From Chthoniobacteraceae bacterium (lineage in GTDB: Bacteria > Verrucomicrobiota > Verrucomicrobiia > Chthoniobacterales > Chthoniobacteraceae), in assembly GCA_947448395.1 (NCBI GenBank), contig CANFNA010000009.1:1-38533 (forward strand): a stretch of 38,533 nt of DNA, read 5' to 3'. A program made the translations under genes and the position numbers. Positions 16,468 through 18,968 of the stretch are shown one piece after another. The stretch's first letter is position 1. The number at the start of each line of letters is the position of its first letter. Below the pieces are notes generated by a model, which did no database searches, had not been told where the DNA came from, and worked only from the letters and a program-made list of their open reading frames with translations.

Positions 16468-16593
16468 ATTAGAATTTTTCGGAATAAGCCCCCGAGAGGT
16501 TGCGGATTGCATCCCTAATCAGATAGACCCCTCGTGACGTTCGGGCAACGCCATGCCGCCCAGCCCCCATTTCTCGCTCGATTTTCAACCCCC

Positions 16594-17433
16594 ATGCTTT
16601 GGAACCTCCGAAACTTTTCTCTGGATCTGAGATCACAGACCGCCCTCATGGGCGTTCTCAATCTCACCCCAGACTCTTTTTCTGACGGAGGCTCTTGGAC
16701 CAAATTCGACGACGCAGTCTCTCACGGCCTCCAAATGGCCACTGAAGGCGCCTTAATTCTGGACATCGGCGGAGAATCCACGCGTCCCGGCGCAGAGCCC
16801 GTTTCCGAGGATCAGGAACTGCAGCGGGTCATTCCTGTCATCAAGGCCCTCGCGAAGAGGACCTCCGCATGGATTTCCATCGACACTCGAAAACCCACGG
16901 TCGCAGCCAAAGCATTGGAAGCAGGAGCCTCCATCATCAATGATGTCGGCGGCTTACAGGATCCTGCCATGCGCTCTCTCGTCGCACAAACCGGTGCCGG
17001 GGCAATCGTCATGCACATGCAAGGAACTCCAGAGACCATGCAGCAATCCCCCCGCTATGAAGATGTCGTCAGCGAGGTCCGTTCTTTTTTTTGTCGAACC
17101 CTCGCACTCTGCTCCGCAGACGCGATCCAGCCCGAACAACTCGTTTTTGATCCCGGCATCGGGTTTGGAAAAACCGTCCCCCATAATCTGGAGTTACTGC
17201 GAAACCTACAAGAACTGCGGGTATCAAATCGCCCTCTCGCGCTCGGTGTCTCACGCAAAAGCTTCCTCAGTAAAATCACAGGCAACGAAGCGATTAAAGA
17301 CCGATTCTGGCCAACGGTGGCATTGAGCAGTTACGCCAGAGCACGAGGGGTCTCTTTGCTACGCGTTCACGACGTTCTACCAAATTTCCAGTCAGTCAGG
17401 ATGACGGAAGCCATTTTGGAGGGCGCCGCATGA
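16594..17433 (+). CDS. folP: Dihydropteroate synthase
   Basis: 279 aa from the ATG at 16594. A GTG at 16534 would add 20 residues that lack family similarity. The TIM-barrel signatures are all present: MGVLNLTPDSFSDGG (pterin/pyrophosphate loop 1), DIGGESTRPGA (loop 2), SIDTRKPTVAAKAL, INDVGG, VMHMQGTPETMQ, DPGIGFGKT and GVSRKSFL. The enzyme joins p-aminobenzoate to dihydropterin pyrophosphate in folate synthesis. The last codons overlap the cdaA start (ATGA), so folP and cdaA are translationally coupled, an arrangement known from several diderm phyla. It is divergent from the methyltransferase. Confidence 0.96.
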   Translation: MLWNLRNFSLDLRSQTALMGVLNLTPDSFSDGGSWTKFDDAVSHGLQMATEGALILDIGGESTRPGAEPVSEDQELQRVIPVIKALAKRTSAWISIDTRKPTVAAKALEAGASIINDVGGLQDPAMRSLVAQTGAGAIVMHMQGTPETMQQSPRYEDVVSEVRSFFCRTLALCSADAIQPEQLVFDPGIGFGKTVPHNLELLRNLQELRVSNRPLALGVSRKSFLSKITGNEAIKDRFWPTVALSSYARARGVSLLRVHDVLPNFQSVRMTEAILEGAA

Positions 17434-18215
17434 CCCCTTCAAATCCTCTCGATTATCTAACCTCCCATTGGCGTGACGCCATCGAAATAGCCTTGTTGTG
17501 GGCTATCATTTTTTATCTTTGGAAATGGCTTCGTGAAACTCGTGGGATCCGGGTCCTGATCGGTCTCGCTCTCGGCGCTCTTGGCATCCTCTTGCTTTCA
17601 GACTTCCTCCATTTGCGAGTCCTCGATTGGGTGTTGGGAAAGACAGCTGCGCTCATCACCTTTGCGATGGTCGTCATCTTTCAACCCGAGCTTCGCCGAG
17701 CTGCCGTGATGATTGGAAACAACCGCCTTTTCACACTGGGCGAGCATAACAAAGAAACAGTCGAGGTCCTCGGTGAGGTCACCTTCGAACTGGCCAACCG
17801 CGGACTCGGGGCTCTCATCGCCATCGAACGCGATATTCCGCTCGATTCTTCGGCGGAAGGAGGCGTGGCCCTCGATTCTCGTCTCAGCGTTGAACTCGTC
17901 GTCACGATCTTCCATGACAAAACCCCTCTCCATGACGGCGGCCTCATCCTCCGATCCAACCGACTCCTCGCGGGCGCCTGTATTTTCCCAATCACCCAAC
18001 GCACCGACCTTGACCGAAGCCTCGGCCTGAGACACCGCGCCGCCCTCGGTCTAAGCGAAGAAACCGATGCCGTCATTATCGTAGTCAGCGAAGAAAACAG
18101 CATGGTGTCCATCTGCTACGATGGCGAAATCGAACGAAACTTTGCTCCCGCCACCTTCAAGGAACGTCTCGCAGAACTACTCTCCCTTTCCGGCAATGAA
18201 GAGTCCGACGAATAA
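17430..18215 (+). CDS. cdaA: Membrane diadenylate cyclase CdaA (DacA)
   Basis: 261 aa, normal for CdaA. Three membrane helices occupy about residues 18-34, 39-58 and 70-86, followed by the DisA_N/DAC domain. The catalytic RHR motif is at 201-203 (GLRHRAALGLSEETDA) with VVSEENSMVS after it. The DGA motif appears as Asp169-Gly170-Gly171 (LHDGGLIL), an Ala to Gly change. The enzyme condenses two ATP into c-di-AMP at the membrane, a messenger for cell-wall and osmotic control. It overlaps folP by 4 bp upstream and a 47-codon reading frame by 20 bp downstream. In Firmicutes the following gene is cdaR; see the next entry. Confidence 0.94.
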   Translation: MTPSNPLDYLTSHWRDAIEIALLWAIIFYLWKWLRETRGIRVLIGLALGALGILLLSDFLHLRVLDWVLGKTAALITFAMVVIFQPELRRAAVMIGNNRLFTLGEHNKETVEVLGEVTFELANRGLGALIAIERDIPLDSSAEGGVALDSRLSVELVVTIFHDKTPLHDGGLILRSNRLLAGACIFPITQRTDLDRSLGLRHRAALGLSEETDAVIIVVSEENSMVSICYDGEIERNFAPATFKERLAELLSLSGNEESDE

Positions 18216-18339
18216 CGCCTGGCTTCCCAAAGTCATCACCCTCCTGATTGCCGTCGCTGTCTGGTACGTGATCCGTCAACACGTATCCAAACCCGCCAAC
18301 TCGCGCCTTTATAAAAGCGCGAGCTCCGAAAGTCGCTAG
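18196..18339 (+). CDS. Small single-span membrane protein resembling the N-terminal anchor of CdaR (YbbR)
   Basis: 47 aa, ATG at 18196 inside the last 20 bp of cdaA, stop at 18339. It reads MKSPTNNAWLPKVITLLIAV, then AVWYVIRQHVSKPANSRL and a Ser-rich tail: a short polar start, one hydrophobic helix (about 11-25) and a basic exit. This is the pattern of the membrane anchor of YbbR/CdaR proteins (a K/N-rich start, LK.-.SLLLA-.-LW), and CdaR is the known regulator encoded next to cdaA. No YbbR domain follows, since only 50 bp remain before the convergent purN stop. Candidate minimal CdaR or a truncated remnant. Overlap and position argue for translational coupling; expression is not shown. Confidence 0.6.
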   Translation: MKSPTNNAWLPKVITLLIAVAVWYVIRQHVSKPANSRLYKSASSESR

Positions 18340-18389: not shown

Positions 18390-18968
18390 TCATTCCGCCG
18401 CCAAACCCGCTAAAACCTCGGGATACAGCGTGTGTTCAGCCACCTGAATTCTCGCGTGCAGCGACTCCGGCGTGTCCCCCGGAAATACAGCGACCTCCCT
18501 CTGTGCGATAATTCGGCCGGTATCCATCCCTGCATCCACCCAATGCACTGTACATCCAGTCACAGGAACCCCCGCCTCCAGCGCCTGCTTCCACGCATGC
18601 AAACCAGGAAACTGAGGCAGCAGCGAGGGATGAATATTCAAAATCCTTTCGGAAAAAGCCTCTAAAAGCGGCTCCTTGATCATCCGCATGTAACCCGCAA
18701 GAACCACAAATTCAACCTGCGCCTCCCTCAATATCCGAACTAACTCCGCCTCAACCTCAGGCTCCAATTTTGTTCGAAACCGTGAAGCCGGAAGCGCATG
18801 ACTCAAAATCCCTCGATCTTGCGCTAATTTCAAAATGCCTGCATCCGCAACGTCCGAAATAACCACGCACACCTCTGCAGCAAGTCGCCCTTCGTCAATG
18901 GCCGCCGCTATCGCTCCAAAATTCGAGCCCTTGCCAGATCCCAAAACGCCAATCCGAATCTTTCTCAT
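18390..18968 (-). CDS. purN: Phosphoribosylglycinamide formyltransferase
   Basis: 192 aa, typical of the folate-dependent GAR transformylase. GSGKGSN phosphate-binding motif at 10-16. The catalytic residues are Asn111 and His113 in ILNIHPSLLPQFPG, with Asp149 in VDAGMDTGRIIAQ. The enzyme formylates GAR using 10-formyl-tetrahydrofolate in purine synthesis. It is the last of four minus-strand genes after an L,D-transpeptidase, a Prc protease and a heptose adenylyltransferase, 35 bp behind the latter. The purine gene is out of pathway in this run, so the operon is probably one of convenience or growth-linked control. Confidence 0.95.
   Translation of the reverse strand: MRKIRIGVLGSGKGSNFGAIAAAIDEGRLAAEVCVVISDVADAGILKLAQDRGILSHALPASRFRTKLEPEVEAELVRILREAQVEFVVLAGYMRMIKEPLLEAFSERILNIHPSLLPQFPGLHAWKQALEAGVPVTGCTVHWVDAGMDTGRIIAQREVAVFPGDTPESLHARIQVAEHTLYPEVLAGLAAE

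Follow-up and report, generated by a model that had tools for sequence, protein, structure and literature searches.

Mini-CdaR, a conserved single-helix CdaR anchor without YbbR domains adjoining cdaA in Chthoniobacterales

Introduction

Published work on the diadenylate cyclase CdaA and on CdaR (YbbR) places the interaction of the two proteins in their membrane domains (PMC10243994, PMC8573169), and a suppressor in a ybbR mutant was identified there as a dacA change in the third membrane helix (PMC5207132). The same work describes three or four YbbR domains in CdaR of lactic acid bacteria as well as CdaA-CdaR fusion proteins in streptococci (PMC10243994). CdaR has been reported both as an activator and as a repressor (PMC8573169, PMC5207132), higher c-di-AMP resulted from a ybbR insertion in S. 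aureus (PMC11520302), and the mode of CdaA regulation by CdaR is described as unclear or unknown (PMC8573169, PMC10243994).

The gene described here, referred to as mini-CdaR, shares with CdaR/YbbR the conserved N-terminal anchor positions and the gene place cdaA-X-glmM, however YbbR domains are present in CdaR/YbbR and mini-CdaR is without any. Short CdaR proteins with one or two YbbR domains, found in other families of the class (Verrucomicrobiia in the lineage given for this DNA), have the same anchor in the same place, but at 127-230 aa they retain the YbbR domain or domains, unlike mini-CdaR. In comparison with CdaA-CdaR fusions (streptococci, and loci L274 and L275 described below), CdaA and a CdaR-type anchor likewise form one unit here, although the anchor is encoded by a tiny gene of its own with no YbbR part. 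No account of such a mini-CdaR was found in the accessible portions of the open-licence literature. Its interest is that it isolates the part of CdaR whose role is open; an anchor kept alone is a natural hint that the anchor matters, and a helix-only natural CdaR separates membrane contact from the YbbR domains, making the question of regulation directly testable.

Results and Discussion

The mini-CdaR gene and its setting

The window, i.e., the whole stretch of 38,533 nucleotides that was analysed, comes from a metagenome-assembled genome (MAG) that is 82% complete. The features around mini-CdaR are as follows:

16534..17433, + strand: folP-like gene (presumed), directly upstream of cdaA; open reading frame
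17430..18215, + strand: cdaA, membrane diadenylate cyclase (CdaA_N + DAC); family matches
18196..18215, + strand: 20-bp overlap between the end of cdaA and the start of mini-CdaR, the latter in frame +1 relative to cdaA
18196..18339, + strand: mini-CdaR, 47-residue single-helix membrane protein, CdaR anchor without YbbR domain; sequence, conservation, dN/dS, helix face and anchor homology
18390..18968, - strand: purN-like frame, convergent and outside the unit; open reading frame, named in the original prediction without a family search

The frame at 18196-18339 (+) is intact, with the 47-residue translation MKSPTNNAWLPKVITLLIAVAVWYVIRQHVSKPANSRLYKSASSESR, and its stop lies 50 bp from the end of the convergent purN-like frame. 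The cdaA product, P0002, passes the membership test for CdaA, which asks for CdaA_N and DAC, with domain scan matches at 1.9e-8 and 4.7e-34, respectively. The upstream gene at 16534..17433 (+) is one that we take to be folP-like, from its sequence alone. The original prediction had described a 47-aa frame overlapping cdaA by 20 bp and separated from purN by 50 bp, all of which proved exact, and had proposed looking for a YbbR protein elsewhere in the genome; none was found at E<=0.001 in this 82% complete MAG. A PgpH-type phosphodiesterase was likewise not found in this incomplete genome, and glmM is located on a separate contig, C17.

Conservation at cdaA in Chthoniobacterales

Within the order Chthoniobacterales, 137 of 147 genomes gave a cdaA match. 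The analysis covered 131 of these loci, the remaining six being cut off or not fetched. A short anchor frame follows or overlaps cdaA at 127 of these loci, comprising 126 mini-CdaR genes whose start codon is close to where it was expected and one (G049) that starts further upstream; the other four loci of the 131 (G036, G084, G100, and G132) have no mini-CdaR at cdaA. Frames were chosen by profile search, with a seed profile built without G006, G036, G040, and G081; motif picking gave wrong frames or starts at some loci. The 126 proteins range in length from 44 to 86 aa, all contain Lys12 (K12) and Trp23 (W23) without exception, and 123 begin with ATG.

Relative to cdaA, the mini-CdaR frame is +1 at 116 of the 126 loci and stands in another relation at the other ten, seven of which have a gap between the genes. 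The most common overlap is 113 nt, and since most mini-CdaR genes of the order overlap cdaA, their conservation is in part also that of the cdaA frame. The predominance of the +1 relation, together with in-frame CdaA-anchor fusions in relatives (L274 and L275), is what would be expected if the frame were the C-terminal end of CdaA reached by a +1 frameshift, yielding a CdaA-anchor fusion instead of a separate protein. This is, however, very unlikely in our judgement given the ATG starts (123/126), the ten loci with a different frame relation including the seven that are gapped, and the copies with no adjoining cdaA described below (7/109). At order loci with large overlaps (e.g., L060 and L065), the 3′ end of cdaA crosses much of the mini-CdaR gene in a different frame, and owing to this overlap the WYLIKQ codons give rise to CdaA tails such as VSHQ as by-products.

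Downstream, glmM is the next gene in 86 of the 126 loci as identified by motif, an opposing purN-like frame is found in two, and neither was seen in 38. A leader frame whose translation serves only to couple cdaA to glmM would occupy just this position between the two genes, but the amino acid sequence of mini-CdaR is conserved and the gene is present without a following glmM in the window, in Akkermansia muciniphila, and in the copies away from cdaA, leaving this explanation with next to no credence.

Homology to the CdaR anchor and the conserved helix face

A profile built from at most 57 anchors of longer CdaR proteins, with one to three YbbR domains as judged by size, matched all 126 mini-CdaR proteins of the order at E<1e-3. 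The window peptide, counted once in the 126, matched at 1e-5, bearing out the proposal that it encodes a helix of the CdaR-anchor type and then stops. Shuffled cores matched the same profile in 51 of 126 cases at E<10 and in none under 1e-3, with a best value of 0.079. When the profile was applied to the 8934 stop-to-stop frames of the order loci, 128 matches were obtained at E<1, consisting of the 126 mini-CdaR proteins, that of G049 (1.4e-4), and one weak other, G005_2 (0.072).

Conservation along the helix recurs with a period near 100 degrees in mini-CdaR (permutation p 0.0009, n=156), in one/two-domain CdaR (0.0008, n=29), and in full-length CdaR (0.0022, n=28). Positions K12, L16, A19, W23, and I26 are common to all three size forms and W9 is found mainly in mini-CdaR; the entropy correlation between mini-CdaR and full-length CdaR is 0.63, and the stripe is weaker in the latter (K 0.68, W 0.68). 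Two mini-CdaR proteins of the class with no standard start codon were left out of this analysis, and two of 30 full-length loci (L146 and L152), in which the wrong frame had been called, were excluded by the length filter.

Searches of 28 mini-CdaR proteins against Pfam and NCBIfam detected no YbbR, only weak scattered matches in single members (best 0.0062 in Pfam and 0.0008 in NCBIfam). PHROGs gave no match to the window peptide at E 0.01, and among solved structures there was one weak match only (E 0.45). Membership of CdaR would require a single-helix anchor homologous to that of CdaR, at least one extracytoplasmic YbbR domain, and a gene placed immediately after cdaA, as a rule ahead of glmM. 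The 47-aa frame meets the first, by profile and shared stripe, and the last by position, with glmM next in 86 of 126 order loci but absent at the window itself, where the convergent purN-like gene is found; it does not meet the second. Mini-CdaR is thus the CdaR anchor as a free-standing gene and, strictly, no CdaR in domain terms.

A mixed alignment of CdaA, mini-CdaR, and the joined reading, assembled for structure prediction, was rejected with its mini-CdaR rows judged misplaced; these cover a mean of 8-20% of the joined chain, and the consensus of the alignment has an NW...LLLA stretch at the CdaA N-terminus.

Selection on the mini-CdaR core

Core dN/dS was calculated leaving out codons that overlap cdaA and dropping pairs with pS >0.72 or fewer than 15 codons; the pairs share sequences. 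Ten genera were tried, of which g2 yielded no usable pair. In the nine usable genera, eight values lie between 0.09 and 0.37 and one is 0: g26 0.09 (2 pairs), g13 0.10 (6), g71 0.14 (3), g24 0.25 (50), g42 0.34 (44), g1 0.37 (30), and, from single pairs, g78 0.19, g186 0.35, and g47 0, the last resting on 12 synonymous and no non-synonymous differences. Tail values were higher than core values in five of the eight genera for which they could be computed and lower in three. At the level of sequence, these ratios place mini-CdaR under purifying selection.

YbbR domains and the size series across the phylum

YbbR (PF07949) was found in none of the 147 order genomes, that of the window included. 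In a sample of the phylum, 160 of 288 genomes have YbbR, all outside the class, and in a separate sample of the class it occurs in 22 genomes out of 150, all of which belong to families without an identified mini-CdaR. The mini-CdaR profile matched 95 of the 288 phylum genomes at E<=0.01, including 43 outside the class. In at least 26 of those 43, as seen by eye among the matches listed, the match immediately precedes a YbbR match in the same orientation on the same contig. Another four of the 43 are the mini-CdaR proteins of family f41 described below, and in G342 the match is to the beginning of a 363-aa frame that follows cdaA; most of the remaining outside-class matches have no YbbR position among the matches listed. 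Two matches look like chance, a 72-aa frame in G148 on a different contig from its YbbR gene and a 789-aa frame in G308. All 30 fetched YbbR loci hold cdaA, followed in 28 by a CdaR of 315-356 aa.

Among 70 loci from the rest of the class, cdaA is followed by a mini-CdaR in 32 (31-83 aa, two with no standard start found), by a protein of 127-164 aa in 25 (one placed by eye), and by a protein of 221-230 aa in five; such a gene is absent in five, a mini-CdaR lies approximately 750 bp away in one, and two are unclear. Pfam counts one YbbR domain in two short forms (one barely above the cut-off), two in one middle form, and three and two in two full-length forms, the remaining members of the series being classed by length alone. 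Phylum-wide, the same anchor is therefore found with three, two, one, or no YbbR domains.

Families f87 and f93 have cdaA with neither mini-CdaR nor CdaR after it at five loci, and a glmM frame directly follows cdaA in four of the five class loci scored as absent. Along with the four order loci that lack mini-CdaR, this shows that the gene is dispensable in some lineages. The arrangement of cdaA then glmM, with neither CdaR nor mini-CdaR, was observed at L220, L248, L253, and L255 of these two families.

Origin and maintenance of the short form

A CdaA tree of 137 rows places 62 of 69 mini-CdaR loci in one clade (SH-aLRT 97), six in f70/f75, and one in f80; the main clade also includes five loci with neither mini-CdaR nor a YbbR-bearing CdaR. 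Outside the class, four f41 genomes encode mini-CdaR proteins of 47-55 aa with F or Y replacing W23, and YbbR matches were obtained in a further two genomes of this family, G244 and G399; the case for a separate origin in f41 depends on its position outside the class. Parsimony on the CdaA trees gives three or four changes between mini-CdaR and YbbR-bearing forms, and an AU test run on the 81 rows kept after thinning did not reject a single mini-CdaR clade (p 0.466). The trees were built without G036 and G040, the second also without G239, and the AU set does not include G490 and G451.

The original prediction had left undecided whether the frame is a minimal CdaR or a remnant. Relatives outside the mini-CdaR clade that hold one to three YbbR domains at the same place, and the loss of the gene in some lineages, are compatible with a functionless decaying remnant of a full cdaR. 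Against such a remnant, which we consider highly improbable, stand the retention of mini-CdaR at 127 of the 131 order loci and across nine more families within the class, the invariant K and W within the order, the conservation of the helix face, and the low dN/dS. The short form is kept over a clade of many families, which argues for a stable reduction and not a decayed end. Both checks proposed for relatives, the peptide downstream of cdaA and dN/dS across homologues, came out in favour of a minimal CdaR, with the anchor frame conserved in the order and ratios of 0 to 0.37 in nine genera. As for the two outcomes named in advance as refuting it, a lack of conservation of the frame was not met, and a YbbR-domain gene at this place in relatives was met in part, since other families within the class and the phylum carry such a gene. 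Mini-CdaR is, as far as comparison of these genes can tell, an old and maintained gene and not a decaying end.

Spread of the anchor and copies away from cdaA

Sequences from the order and from family f15 were used to tune a DNA anchor pattern, and searches with it are for this reason no unbiased survey. It matched 109 stretches in the genome collection, and the 80 titles listed are all Verrucomicrobiota, including Chthoniobacterales, Spartobacteria, Candidatus Udaeobacter, Terrimicrobiaceae, Akkermansia, Luteolibacter, and Prosthecobacter; in the Akkermansia, Prosthecobacter, and Luteolibacter records a short anchor frame follows or overlaps cdaA. This wide distribution suggests that mini-CdaR is old.

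No cdaA adjoins seven of the 109 matches and, in the genome of the window, glmM has moved to another contig. Both observations leave room for a CdaR-derived membrane microprotein that now serves another partner, with a merely historical linkage to cdaA. However, the other 102 matches lie directly after cdaA, the conserved face is common to mini-CdaR and longer CdaR, and no mini-CdaR was detected at E<=0.01 in 16 genomes lacking cdaA (15 from the class and one from the order), although these come from few families and shared descent weighs in. A different partner is accordingly unlikely, without being negligible.

The copies with no adjoining cdaA are L295, L304, L327, L336, L342, L353, and L380, six of them Verrucomicrobia MAGs by title (the title of L380 is not among these), and several have an additional NWR motif ahead of the anchor. 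In L304 the gene lies between aminotransferase-like and FHA-like frames and, in A. muciniphila (L362:4354-5007, -), a bioD-like frame follows mini-CdaR instead of glmM; these names were given from sequence only.

Proposed role of mini-CdaR

The reading that we hold to be likely is that mini-CdaR is a genuine protein under selection, a CdaR cut down to the N-terminal anchor, and by inference that it packs on the helices of CdaA and stabilises or sets the cyclase. It would insert N-in as a single helix whose lysine lies close to the inner face of the membrane, and the conserved face formed by W9, K12, L16, A19, W23, and I26 is inferred, in the absence of a structure of the pair, to pack against the CdaA transmembrane helices. 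Such packing would most likely stabilise the cyclase or set its activity or state, both the binding and the effect on c-di-AMP being inferred. With CdaR reported as activator and repressor, the direction of the effect is left unstated. Input from outside via YbbR domains would be absent, and membrane contact may represent the core function of CdaR, the extracytoplasmic YbbR domains being an optional input module that was dropped here. Membrane contact alone as the working mode, as suggested in the original prediction, remains an inference, with no expression, interaction, or c-di-AMP data.

A broader reading is that the regulatory core of CdaR is the transmembrane helix alone, that a microprotein of approximately 45-65 residues controls the cyclase inside the bilayer, and that YbbR was lost several times (in the main clade, f70/f75, f41, and f80). 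We rate it lower, as a possibility for which the case is nearly even, because the f41 proteins do not retain W23 and a single mini-CdaR origin was not rejected.

CdaA-anchor fusions

Thirteen loci of the class that encode a second CdaA-like protein were retrieved. A CdaR-type anchor is found right after DAC in L275 (235-1464, +) and in L274 (1318-2541, -), with E-values of 9.9e-7 and 4e-4, respectively, using the longer-CdaR profile, and Pfam sees no YbbR in either; in L278, Pfam places a YbbR domain behind DAC within one protein. Natural CdaA-anchor fusions of this kind support the cyclase and anchor as a working unit.

The fusions of L274 and L275 carry a short further part, and their genomes (G492 and G459) also hold a separate cdaA. 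The loci L270-L273 and L276-L282 encode the other second paralogs of the cyclase, in which a long segment follows DAC, and three of these were searched with Pfam, giving YbbR in L278 as above and DAC only in L280 and L282.
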